Source: Avibacterium endocarditidis
GTDB taxonomy: Bacteria; Pseudomonadota; Gammaproteobacteria; Enterobacterales; Pasteurellaceae
Direction of reading: 5' to 3'
NCBI RefSeq assembly: GCF_002921145.1
Contig: NZ_PQVI01000013.1
Location: 1 to 34,275, forward strand
Length of the DNA: 34,275 nt
The notes beneath the pieces are model-generated. The model was not told where the DNA came from and made no database searches. It saw only the letters and a list, made by a program, of their open reading frames with translations. Below are positions 6,526 to 9,662 of the stretch, piece after piece. The position numbers were made by a program, and so were the translations under genes. Position 1 is the first letter of the stretch. Every line of letters starts with the position of its first letter.

Positions 6526-6729
6526 TTATTTCTCTTCAAACCAAACTCGCTCGGCGGTTACATCAATAATATTGTCGTCTTTTCCGCGTGCAAGTAGGGT
6601 GGCGAATACGAAGCCTAAGGAGCTGATACAAAAGGCGAATAGGGTGAATAAGACGAGGCTGCCCATTACGGCAAAGTCAATAGCGGCTAATAAAAAGTTT
6701 TGTAAAAAGGTGATGAAATTGTGCAACAT
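6526..6729 (-). CDS. Small membrane protein, probable member of the QseB regulon
   Basis: A 67-residue protein that I do not recognise. Residues about 12-47 are strongly hydrophobic (AVMGSLVLFTLFAFCISSLG and neighbours), enough for one long or two short membrane helices. A charged C-terminal tail follows (LLARGKDDNIIDVT, then VWFEEK). The ATG has AGAGGAC six bases upstream, so translation is credible. It lies downstream of qseC, but its own promoter (6880-6911) has the same operator layout as the PepSY-qseBC promoter. The gene ends at a strong terminator. By analogy with MgrB and similar small membrane regulators it could feed back on a sensor kinase; this is only a hypothesis. Confidence 0.7.
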   Translation of the reverse strand: MLHNFITFLQNFLLAAIDFAVMGSLVLFTLFAFCISSLGFVFATLLARGKDDNIIDVTAERVWFEEK

Positions 6730-6780
6730 AAATTTGTCCTCTTTAAAATGTTAGGGGTTAAAAGCTCGCGGGCTGGTTTT

Positions 6781-6850
6781 CATTTCATACGCAGTTCGCC
6801 TTGCCGTACTTTTTGTACGTTTTCGGCTTAATGCGGTTGAACGTGAAATG
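6781..6850 (-). other. Structured leader or dispersed repeat before the small membrane protein
   Basis: Nested pairings on the minus-strand transcript are: 6844-6850 with 6781-6787 (7 pairs), 6839-6842 with 6794-6797 (4), 6825-6827 with 6798-6800 (3), and 6815-6819 with 6805-6809 (5, loop of A5). It lies between the promoter at 6880-6911 and the ribosome site at about 6736. A frame without stops also spans 6903-6751 (50 codons from a GTG, very basic, ending RRTAYEMKTSPRAFNP). Its only plausible starts lie inside the operator or -10, so I do not call it a gene. It could be a 5' leader, a small RNA or a dispersed repeat. Confidence 0.4.
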
Positions 6851-6879
6851 CCTTTCGCGATACGTTTTTCATTGCCCTC

Positions 6880-6911
6880 ATCATACAAAAGAAAAATTAG
6901 CACAGAATTAG
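6880..6911 (-). promoter_or_regulatory. QseB-type operator and promoter of the small membrane protein gene
   Basis: On the minus strand two CTAAT half-sites (6907-6911 and 6896-6900) are spaced 11 bases, one helical turn, followed after 10 bases by a TATGAT -10 (6880-6885). The half-sites occupy the place of a -35 element, typical for activation by OmpR/PhoB-family regulators. The same spacing and near-identical sequence occur before the PepSY gene (9631-9662). Confidence 0.65.
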
Positions 6912-6945
6912 TATATCGCTAAACTTCTTTCACTTTTTTACAGTG

Positions 6946-8277
6946 TTACTTCGCTAAGCTCACTCGCACCCATAGCCCCGTTGGGAAGTGGCGGCTGTCG
7001 CGTAGCTCAATTTTTCCGCCGTAGTTTTGGACGATTTGCTGGGCGATGGCAAGCCCTAATCCTGATCCCATTTGGTCTGAGCCAAGTATGCGATAGAACG
7101 GGTCGAACACGCGTTGGCGTTCCGCTGTAGGAATGCCGTTGCCGTTATCTTCCACATTCAAAATTAAATGCTCTGCCGTATCTTCCGCCCAAAGGTCAAT
7201 GCGGCTGCCCGTTGGCGTGTAGCGAATGGCGTTATCTACAAGGGTTTTGATTAAAAGATAAAGTTCCGTTTCGTTGCCTTGAAAGAAAATTGGTTGAGGC
7301 GATTCCACGCCTAAATCTTGTTGTTTTTGTTCGGCGAGGGGGTATAAATCGGCGATCACTTGGCTAAATACTGATTGAATGGCACATAAAGTGCGGCTCG
7401 TTTTTTCGCCGTTTTGCATTCGTGCTAAGGAAAGTAATTGCTCCAAAAGATGGCGGCTGCGTTGAATGCTTTGATTGAGCTGTGCCACTTGCTGAGCGGT
7501 TTCCGTCGGTAACGGGTGCTGGGCGAGGCGTTCCGCCTGTAAGGAAATCACGGTCATTGGGCTACGCAATTCGTGCGAGGCATCGGCGATAAAGCGTTTT
7601 TGCTGTTGAATGAAACGATCCGTGCGTGCTAAAAATTGGTTGATCGCCAACACGAAGCCCGTAATTTCATTGGGCAAATGGTTTGTCGGCAAGGGGGTGA
7701 GATCTTGCTGAGAACGTTGTAGCACTTTTTGCGAAAGCCGTTCGATGGGTTGCATTGTTTGGCGGGTGATCACATAAATCAGCACGGCGATAAGGGGCAA
7801 AATCAGCATAAAGGGGAGAAAATTCGCCAGTGCGGCGTGAATGGCTAAATCTTCGCGGTATTCATTTTCTTGTAGCACCACGATAACGCCTTGAGGCACG
7901 GTGCGAAGATAGCCGCGATACAATTCGCCCGCGTTTTTTAGGTCATAATGAAAGGAATTTTTTTGTTATTCAATACCGCATAATGCCCTTTTTTTCGTGC
8001 GAAGGTGTAAAAATCATTTTGTGGATTTTCAGGCAATTTGAGCTGATCCGTAGGTTTATCCTTTGCAATAAAGTAAACCGCGATGCCGTTTTCATTGTAT
8101 TTTTCTTCGTGTGCAAAGTGCGGTGAAATATAGCTCGAAATTTGTTTTGAGCATTTCATCTTGCAGTTTGTGGGTTTGGTAATAGGTGTCGTAAAATGCC
8201 CAGCCACTGCCTAAAATCGCAACAATGACAACGGTCAAAATCAAGCTGAAACTGAGCCTTGCTTTTATGGAACGCAT
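6946..8277 (-). CDS. qseC: QseC-like sensor histidine kinase (two frameshifts)
   Basis: Inner-membrane sensor kinase partner of QseB. After correction it is 443 residues: an N-terminal membrane helix (FSLILTVVIVAILGSGWAFY), a periplasmic sensor region, a second helix (LPFMLILPLIAVLIYVI), HAMP-like linker, H-box ADASHELRSPMTV (His near residue 233), N-box LVDNAIRYTPTGS, G1 EDNGNGIP, F-box VFDPFYR and G2 GSGLGLAI. Two breaks interrupt it: one extra A in the run at 8145-8148 and one missing A in the A7 run at 7958-7964. They cancel, and the middle segment reads well in the third frame. Its start overlaps the qseB stop by one base (TAATG). The assignment to QseC rather than another PmrB-like kinase rests on kinase family resemblance and operon type. 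Confidence 0.8.
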
Positions 8278-8945
8278 TATACCGCCTCCGTTTTCGCCAT
8301 TAGCCAGCCCACGCCTCGTACATTTTTTATTCGCTCTTTACCGAGTTTTTTCCGCAAGCTGTGAATAAGAAAATCAATGGCATTGCTCTCCACTTCTTCG
8401 CCCCACGCATAAATTTTGTCTTCTAGCTCCGCTCTGGAATGGATAATCCCCGCCCGCGTCATTAGCACTTGGAGCAAGGCAAATTCTTTGTTGGTCAGCG
8501 GAATGGCTTCGCCGTTCACTTCCACTTGGTGGGTGGTGGGGTCAAGGCTCATATCACCATTGATTACTTTCGGCGAGCTTTGTCCGTAATGGCGGCGTAA
8601 AATGGCACGAATGCGGGCTTGTAACTCGTTCATATCAAAGGGTTTGATTAAATAATCATCTGCCCCACCGTCCAGCCCCGCTAAACGGCTGTCTATGTCA
8701 TCGCGGGCGGTAACGATTAACACGGGCGTGGTGTTTTTCTGTTGGCGTAAGCGTTGCAATAACTGCAAGCCATCTTGCCCCGGTAACCCGAGATCTAACA
8801 AGACGAGATCATAGGTTTGCGTGATTAATGCCTGCTCGGCAGTGTTTCCGTTGTTCACCCAATCCACCGCATAATGGCTTTCTTTGAGGCTGTCCGCCAT
8901 TGCCTGTGCGATCATTTTGTCATCTTCCACTAATAAAATTCGCAT
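8277..8945 (-). CDS. qseB: QseB-like response regulator
   Basis: OmpR/PhoB-family response regulator, 222 residues. The receiver domain has the acidic pair Asp8-Asp9 (MRILLVEDD), phosphorylation site Asp51 (LVLLDLGLPG), Thr79 (LIVTARDD) and Lys101 (DYLIKPFD). The C-terminal winged helix covers about residues 125-220 (LTNKEFALLQVLMTRAG, DFLIHSLRKKLG, VRGVGWLM). I start at the ATG at 8945, where the family sequence begins, with a GAGG about 14 bases upstream; a TTG at 8972 would add nine unusual residues. It is coupled to qseC and separated from the PepSY gene by an attenuator-like hairpin. It probably binds the CTAAT direct repeats found at 9647-9662 and 6896-6911. Confidence 0.88.
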   Translation of the reverse strand: MRILLVEDDKMIAQAMADSLKESHYAVDWVNNGNTAEQALITQTYDLVLLDLGLPGQDGLQLLQRLRQQKNTTPVLIVTARDDIDSRLAGLDGGADDYLIKPFDMNELQARIRAILRRHYGQSSPKVINGDMSLDPTTHQVEVNGEAIPLTNKEFALLQVLMTRAGIIHSRAELEDKIYAWGEEVESNAIDFLIHSLRKKLGKERIKNVRGVGWLMAKTEAV

Positions 8946-8990
8946 TTTGGCATTTTGCCTCTTTGCCTCCAAAAAACCAAAAAACTAATA

Positions 8991-9020
8991 AAAAACAACC
9001 GCACTTTATCAATGCGGTTG
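8991..9020 (-). terminator. Uptake-signal hairpin between the PepSY gene and qseB
   Basis: Stem 8996-9003 with 9013-9020 (8 pairs), followed on the minus strand by T5-6. One arm contains the uptake signal AAGTGCGGT. It lies 24 bases after the PepSY stop and 46 before the qseB start, so it likely terminates part of the transcription and makes qseBC less abundant than the PepSY protein. Confidence 0.7.
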
Positions 9021-9043
9021 CTGAAGTCAAATCTCATTCGGTG

Positions 9044-9562
9044 TTAGAAACGCTCGCCCGTGTTGGCATCGAGGCGAAGTTTTTCGATTTTGCCATTCAC
9101 GATCATTTTAACTTGATACTGCGGGCGATCTTTTTTCACCTTAAATTCAATCTCTTTGATTTTTCCGCCCGTTTGCTGTTGGGCGATGTCCATTGCTTGG
9201 GTGAGTGAAATTTTCACCTCTTGCTGCAAACGCTGGCGTTTTTCAGCGTGTTCCGCTTTTTGCTCAGATTTTGATCCCAACACGTCCCCCGTTTTGGCAT
9301 CAATTTTAAATTCCTGCGTTTCGCTGTCTTTCAGCAATTTCACTTCATAGTAGAGATTGTCTTTCTTGTGCTTGAGTTCCACCTCGATCACTTTGCCGTC
9401 GAATTTGGATTTTGCCTGATCCATCGCTTGTTGTGCGGTGATGCTGGCTTGCTCAAAAATCGCGGTGTCTTTCAAGCTGTCCGCATAAGCCGTTCCCAAT
9501 GCCCCGAAGGTTACTGCACCGATTAAGGCGGTGGCTAAAAGTGTTTTGCGTAAGTTTTTCAT
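9044..9562 (-). CDS. Exported protein with two PepSY domains
   Basis: A 172-residue secreted or periplasmic protein. Residues 1-27 form a clear signal peptide (MKNLRKTLLATALIG, cleavage expected after AYA). Two PepSY-type repeats follow, each with a helix then strands ending in an Asp-ala-Thr/Asn-Gly turn: ITAQQAMDQAK to IDAKTGDVLGS, and ISLTQAMDIAQQQTGG to LDANTGERF. PepSY domains are known as inhibitors or regulators of proteases and as partners of sensor systems. The start has AAAGGAG. It heads the operon with qseB and qseC and has an operator for an OmpR-type regulator, so it may be both target and periplasmic modulator of the kinase. Other Pasteurellaceae carry ygiW in this place. Confidence 0.85.
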   Translation of the reverse strand: MKNLRKTLLATALIGAVTFGALGTAYADSLKDTAIFEQASITAQQAMDQAKSKFDGKVIEVELKHKKDNLYYEVKLLKDSETQEFKIDAKTGDVLGSKSEQKAEHAEKRQRLQQEVKISLTQAMDIAQQQTGGKIKEIEFKVKKDRPQYQVKMIVNGKIEKLRLDANTGERF

Positions 9563-9630
9563 TGTTATACTCCTTTGTTAATCATTAAAATTCATCGTAG
9601 GTTGCTGTTCGCTTCCTTAGCGACGGGAGC

Positions 9631-9662
9631 ATTATAAAAAGCTAAAATTAGCACAAAATTAG
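9631..9662 (-). promoter_or_regulatory. QseB-type operator and promoter of the PepSY-qseBC operon
   Basis: On the minus strand two GCTAATTTT half-sites (CTAAT cores at 9658-9662 and 9647-9651, spaced 11 bases) stand 10 bases before a perfect TATAAT (9631-9636). There is no good -35, as expected for an activator-dependent promoter. The arrangement equals that at 6880-6911 base for base in spacing. Transcription would start near 9624, about 60 bases before the PepSY ATG. Confidence 0.7.

Follow-up and report, generated by a model that had tools for sequence, protein, structure and literature searches.

Two very similar promoters flank a two-component operon in a contig of Avibacterium endocarditidis (NZ_PQVI01000013.1, positions 1 to 34,275; this whole stretch of 34,275 nucleotides is called the window here), which raises the question of which regulator acts on them and what else it controls. 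The order on the minus strand is ispH, a first promoter (site A), a gene with two PepSY stretches, the gene for an OmpR-family response regulator (RR), a sensor kinase gene, a second promoter (site B), a gene for a hydrophobic protein of 67 amino acids (aa) and then a phosphotransferase system of the N-acetylgalactosamine type. An earlier note on this DNA had read both promoters as targets of QseB. We find that the pair is real and forms a predicted regulon of two promoters, belonging to an unnamed clade of PmrA/QseB-like regulators whose operator is shifted. The explanation favoured here, to which we assign a probability of roughly 0.85, is that the RR encoded between the sites would bind both of them and activate its own operon and the 67-aa gene, the sites being a shifted PmrA box and the targets a small envelope regulon.

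Both promoters match CTAAT-N6-CTAAT-N10-TATRAT exactly on the minus strand, as the earlier note had described. Site A (9631..9662), which precedes the PepSY-RR-kinase operon, has its half-sites at 9658-9662 and 9647-9651 and the -10 element TATAAT at 9631-9636. Site B (6880..6911), which precedes the 67-aa gene, has half-sites at 6907-6911 and 6896-6900 and the -10 element TATGAT at 6880-6885. The operators had been called identical; this is true of the half-sites but not of the N6 spacers, TTTGTG and TCTGTG, which differ in one base. Read by eye, neither promoter has a -35-like hexamer at the usual distance. When up to 3 mismatches were allowed, a scan of the window returned these two matches only, each with 0 mismatches. 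Two matches were also reached in 14 of 100 shuffled windows, so the count at this loose threshold is not significant by itself. With the full pattern, the draft genome of 2.26 Mb gave 2 exact matches, each of them inside the window, compared to 0 for the reversed-pattern control and 0 in 20 genomes simulated with the dinucleotide composition of the window, which agrees with the claim that such geometry is unlikely to arise by chance. The repeat without its -10 element is ordinary: its 7 genomic occurrences compare with 9 of the reversed control and 4.35 per simulated genome. Relaxing the consensus to allow as many as 3 mismatches gave one further, poor match in this genome (3 mismatches, C158), and the reversed control gave one as well. 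Since this adds no credible site, the regulon here consists of two promoters, within the limits of sequence and of a draft that is 93% complete.

The connection between site and regulator comes from their distribution over 140 Pasteurellaceae genomes. For this search the pattern was widened to CTAATT-N5-CTAATT-N9-TANNNT after inspection of promoters in RR-positive genomes; it was found at 51 places in 35 genomes, the reversed control at 6 in total (table sums made by hand). RR orthologues were defined as matches with E <1e-79 (at least 58% identity), a cut set after the gap had been seen among matches requested to 1e-60; the next group shares 43-47% identity, with E values of 3e-64 or weaker. 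The orthologue is present in 35 of the 140 genomes. Among these 35, 33 have the site, compared to 2 of the 105 genomes lacking the RR, and 103 genomes have neither (Fisher p 2.7e-27, a value that is too small because related genomes are treated as independent). Counted by hand over genera, the site is present in all 10 RR-positive genera and in 1 of 33 others. Within Avibacterium (genus g1, to which the window genome G000 belongs) each of the three RR-positive genomes has two sites and the four RR-negative genomes have none. In one of the two RR-positive genomes that were missed the contig begins inside the PepSY gene (G127), and the other carries a one-base variant of the site before an eptA-type gene (G133). 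In the two RR-negative genomes with a site (G096 and G122), the genes behind it encode proteins of other kinds, of 420 and 233 aa, which we take to be Rho and PhoU. The co-distribution bears out the expectation that the site is distinctive enough for the regulon to be located in one genome after another, and these comparisons support the paired site as the likely operator of the adjacent OmpR-family regulator. Its placement is conserved as well: counterparts of site A in relatives also lie upstream of a PepSY or RR gene, and site B is kept in both other RR-positive genomes of the genus (G023 and G025), so that the site would mark both the operon of the RR itself and the gene for the small membrane protein, as had been suggested.

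The name QseB did not withstand the analysis. A true QseBC system with a QseB box would fit the kinase, whose fragment scores best against the NCBIfam model for QseC (204.2 bits, compared to 171 for PmrB; neither reaches its cut-off), and QseB-clade loci share the 11-bp direct repeats. However, in a tree of 61 distinct sequences (reduced from 70 rows) the window RR groups with others, 36 rows in all, under the label CTAAT-type (89/85; 99/97 with Herbaspirillum), which also takes in Alysiella, whose locus has no promoter-like site. It is not inside the QseB clade (100/97), which is made up of E. coli QseB, 16 Pasteurellaceae paralogues and one row from an alphaproteobacterial metagenome-assembled genome (MAG). 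E. coli BasR sits on a long branch and its position is unsure. The best NCBIfam model for the RR is PmrA (256.8 bits, cut-off 330), QseB being second (219.4 bits, cut-off 345), and neither cut-off is reached. Moreover, the operon is led by a PepSY gene (PF03413) and not by the BOF gene ygiW, which adjoins qseB in E. coli.

The operators point the same way. CTTAA-N6-CTTAA is said to be the QseB box of Aggregatibacter, and the window contains no CTTAA pair with a spacing of 5-7. Nor does the site fit the PmrA box YTTAAK-N5-YTTAAK, the half-site here being NCTAAT, with an equal period and distance to the -10 element. A CTTAA pair of spacing 5-7 was present in 13 of 16 fetched loci of family paralogues and in both E. 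coli loci (QseB and BasR), and none of these 18 loci had a CTAAT pair. Six of the paralogue pairs lie more than 1.5 kb upstream of the RR gene and several are on the other strand; with many of them not placed as promoters, the box type of the paralogues is shown loosely. Four genomes (G006, G042, G068 and G101) carry a window-type RR together with a paralogue of 44-46% identity, which also argues against the QseBC assignment. By tree and box type this assignment is largely refuted and we consider it improbable; the comparisons place the RR in a separate, unnamed clade near PmrA and QseB.

To describe the operator of this clade, 44 distinct sites were tallied, many of them from close relatives; those of G096 and G122, kept in the co-distribution, were left out because these genomes have no RR. 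At the positions left free in the search both halves agree: S stands before CTAAT in 34 first and 39 second half-sites, and Y (44 and 44) and T (42 and 42) occupy the free positions that follow, giving the consensus SCTAATTYT. In the register of the PmrA box the new half-site reads SCTAAT. The recognition helix differs in parallel. Residues 191-193 (E. coli BasR numbering) separate 35 CTAAT-type regulators from 21 CTTAA-type regulators (E. coli QseB and BasR, 3 from Idiomarina and the 16 family paralogues) without overlap: position 191 is D in the 35 and E in all 21, position 192 is F or Y versus V in all 21, and position 193 is L versus H or Y. Position 196 is S, G, A, T or V in the CTAAT-type and N in 19 of the 21; position 208 is N in 34 CTAAT-type regulators, with one gap, and T in all 21. 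The N at position 188 is kept in all 35. This comparison left out Alysiella (L031, D-Y-L) and Herbaspirillum (L034, E-Y-L), which have no promoter-like CTAAT site, and L036, the alphaproteobacterial MAG, which has a CTTAA pair and E-V-H. In the structure of Klebsiella PmrA with DNA, as described in the passages available, two DNA-binding domains lie head to tail; the residues that read bases are N188, N196 and R210, with T187, V192 and H195 making further base contacts (PMC4660055). The half-sites given for this protein are CTTAAT and CCTAAG, the weaker second one being the closest to the half-site found here (PMC3973317), and the Acinetobacter box is given as TTTAAG-N5-TTTAAG (PMC10927774).

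The genes behind the site in relatives suggest what the regulon is for. In RR-positive genomes, 49 places precede five types of gene. Of these, 28 belong to the RR's own operon or to PepSY (6 directly to the RR operon, 21 to a PepSY gene and 1 to a truncated PepSY copy identified by eye; the PepSY cases of G123 and G130 were assigned from coordinates). A further 12 places, in 9 genomes, precede eptA-type genes, 5 a sulfatase-fold membrane protein of 646-652 aa, and 4 the 67-aa gene. Two eptA-type proteins were scanned: with 624 and 651 bits they passed the cut-off of 500 set for NF028537, the NCBIfam model of lipid A phosphoethanolamine transferases, and with 584 and 647 bits they fell below the EptA equivalog cut-off of 660. 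One of the two has the Pfam domains EptA_B_N and Sulfatase; the remaining genes were assigned by similarity. The one protein scanned of the five of 646-652 aa gave a Sulfatase match, and this protein is possibly another envelope-modifying transferase. Further sites, with CATAAT as the -10 element, are found in G040 and also before a pair of a small open reading frame (ORF) and an eptA-type gene in G041, G042 and G045. PepSY matches occur in 23 genomes, all of them RR-positive; those of G050-G053 are weak, and there the gene does not adjoin the RR gene.

The gene behind site B (6526..6729, minus strand) has matches in 5 of the 140 family genomes, all RR-positive. In two genomes of genus g16 (G050 and G053) a homologue lies at an unrelated locus away from the RR, next to what is presumably a universal-stress-protein-like gene, and still has the operator in front of it; the operator of G053 fits the family pattern and that of G050 has one mismatch in a half-site. 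The strongest argument for a functional site B is this independent pairing of gene and operator. In Pfam, NCBIfam and PHROGs the 67-aa protein matches no family. It is hydrophobic over about residues 5-47, and a structure model made without an alignment is a single helix (mean pLDDT 88.6); the protein is thus probably, on this modelling, one membrane-spanning helix with a polar C-terminal tail. An alignment of four rows has invariant residues at both ends, including ID..AE.VWF in the tail. A different hydrophobic gene, of 70-73 aa, stands between the kinase gene and an eptA-type gene in genus g13 (L121, L122 and L127), with the operator in front. A profile comparison gave 18% probability for a relationship of these proteins to the 67-aa protein, and we claim no homology. 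When the 67-aa alignment was searched against the whole order, 9 of 394 genomes matched: that of the window, and 8 with weak partial matches, 5 of which have internal stops; these 8 were regarded as noise.

Taken together, the mechanism that we infer is the following. The RR would bind, as a head-to-tail dimer, two SCTAATTYT half-sites 11 bp, or one helical turn, apart, directly upstream of the -10 element and in place of a -35. With the -10 element set at -12 to -7, the half-sites start at about -38 and -27 and cover the missing -35. Bound there, the RR may activate its own PepSY-RR-kinase operon, and thus be autoregulated, as well as the 67-aa gene just past the kinase. Its orthologues in Pasteurellaceae would use one operator for a very small envelope regulon, made up of the own operon, PepSY, eptA-type genes, a sulfatase-fold membrane protein or small membrane proteins. 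The operator could be a shifted form of the classical PmrA box, arisen alongside changed DNA-reading helix residues, which we presume to set specificity, and the 67-aa protein may act at the inner membrane, in feedback or as a connector protein.

Binding of the same regulator could also repress both promoters, as the repeat covers the would-be -35 and occupancy could block the polymerase. We consider this quite unlikely, since no -35-like hexamer was seen, and since the repeat is placed relative to the -10 element as at E. coli pmrR, where the TAA core is likewise 11 nt away if CATACT is taken as the -10. In addition, the portion of the structural report available places the -35 of the pbgP promoter at the half-1 site and gives a docking model for activation (PMC4660055). 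That both sites serve another regulator, whose gene lies elsewhere in the genome, is very unlikely: direct repeats are used by other OmpR-family regulators too, but the site is gained and lost with this RR even within a genus and marks the RR's own promoter. A chance motif in AT-rich promoter sequence can practically be dismissed, for although the repeat alone does not exceed its reversed control and shuffled windows can yield two matches at 3 mismatches, the full pattern is restricted in this genome to the two promoters, is conserved in three Avibacterium genomes and at the non-syntenic g16 locus, and is refuted as chance by the co-distribution.

Several observations weigh against activation of an envelope regulon through a shifted box, as proposed here. 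The correlation between residues and operator amounts to essentially one phylogenetic split in these sequences and could reflect descent rather than function; the fetched DNA of 3 of the 21 CTTAA-type regulators lacks a CTTAA pair, and in Alysiella the changed helix occurs with no promoter-like CTAAT site. A matched change of protein and operator is nevertheless plausible from the differences in both, though its basis is this single split. Only 2 of 43 genera have the gene behind site B. An eptA-type gene is present elsewhere in all 7 Avibacterium genomes, whether RR-positive or not, and there is no site at eptA in G000 (where this copy is incomplete at its start), G023 or G025; the envelope role in Avibacterium consequently rests on relatives. 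Finally, the kinase frame is broken twice in this assembly of 161 contigs, so that signalling may be lost in this strain, unless these are assembly errors. In the same-genus genomes G023 and G025 the gene is unbroken, with open frames of 475 codons that include some upstream codons.

A further proposal concerns evolution, and it is tentative, at clearly less than even odds. A branch centred on Pasteurellaceae would have switched from CTTAA to CTAAT together with its helix (191-193 from E-V-H/Y to D-F/Y-L, 196 from N to a small residue), a switch that would keep it insulated from QseB in genomes with both regulators. The branch would also drive lineage-specific small membrane proteins, encoded right behind the kinase gene, and these would act back on the kinase or on the modification of lipid A.

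Among known systems, PmrA/BasR of Salmonella, E. coli, Klebsiella and Acinetobacter resembles the present one in its OmpR-family RR and its head-to-tail repeat with an 11-bp period, and eptA, one of its targets, has a counterpart in the eptA-type genes behind the site in relatives, though not in the RR-positive Avibacterium genomes. PmrB responds to Fe(III) and low pH. The differences lie in the half-site (YTTAAK versus NCTAAT), in helix residues 191-193 and usually 196, in the NCBIfam PmrA score of the window RR, in the PepSY gene that leads the operon and in the 67-aa protein without a family match. The small membrane protein gene pmrR of E. coli is also found at the end of the kinase gene (basS) with its own PmrA-type box. 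It differs in being a 29-aa ORF on the opposite strand that overlaps the end of basS, and no homology with the 67-aa gene is claimed. The reported target of PmrR, in the text available, is LpxT (PMC8004244). A search for LpxT, made without a positive control, found it in 0 of 140 Pasteurellaceae genomes, which makes another partner, such as the kinase or EptA, likelier for the small protein. The QseBC/FirRS systems with ygiW (E. coli, Haemophilus, Aggregatibacter and Glaesserella) share the OmpR-family RR and a QseC-like kinase, and differ in the separate RR clade, in BOF versus PepSY and in their CTTAA pairs. The ygiW-qseBC genes of H. influenzae are described, in the text accessible, as one autoregulated operon (PMC12737762), similar to what site A suggests here. 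A word search of the accessible text of this 2025 review of Pasteurellaceae two-component systems did not return PmrA, BasR, PepSY or Avibacterium. Among the matches listed in a literature search, whose titles and abstract starts were available, the operator is not described in Pasteurellaceae; its absence from print is not proven by this.

For a two-component system that could easily be taken for QseBC, the locus offers a compact regulon that can be read from the sequence alone, and the corrected name directs experimenters to the envelope and away from adrenergic quorum sensing. The change in operator and helix, with both kinds of regulator in four genomes, is a natural experiment on the separation of related regulators. 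The small membrane proteins behind the kinase are candidate feedback partners, in a layout parallel to PmrR and in a family where the LpxT search was empty.

The remaining features of the locus are all on the minus strand. The first operon gene (9044..9562) encodes a 172-aa protein with two PepSY stretches (PF03413, 90.2 bits), and the RR gene (8277..8945) a protein of 222 aa with PF00072 and PF00486; its closest named relative found is from Avibacterium paragallinarum NCTC11296 (98%). The sensor histidine kinase gene (6946..8277) is read in three frames, with HisKA and HATPase_c in 6946-7923, and its interruptions point either to decay of the gene or to errors in the assembly. Counted from behind the -10 element up to the start codon, the leaders measure 68 nt for the PepSY gene and 150 nt for the 67-aa gene; the latter (6730-6879) contains an open frame of 14 codons and exceeds most other leaders compared. 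A conserved leader hairpin was considered; single leaders do fold, but into hairpins that differ from each other, and the feature is recorded here as an observation only. Just after the -10 element (9563-9630 and other loci) many leaders can fold into a short hairpin, often around CATCG, with sequences that vary between species.

In other genomes, tandem operators 169 bp apart were seen at an eptA-type gene in three genomes of genus g2 (L111, 4995 and 5164), with a hairpin and then a T run right after the first operator. Five g13 genomes (L119, L120, L123, L124 and L126) have the operator at a separate locus, before the membrane protein of 646-652 aa. A metagenome contig labelled Acinetobacter (L033), perhaps misbinned or transferred, carries an RR relative of 65% together with a full CTAAT-N6-CTAAT-N10-TATAAT site. 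In L142 (G117:C1:1602249) the promoter occurs a second time, at a distance from the operon and together with a truncated PepSY-like ORF.

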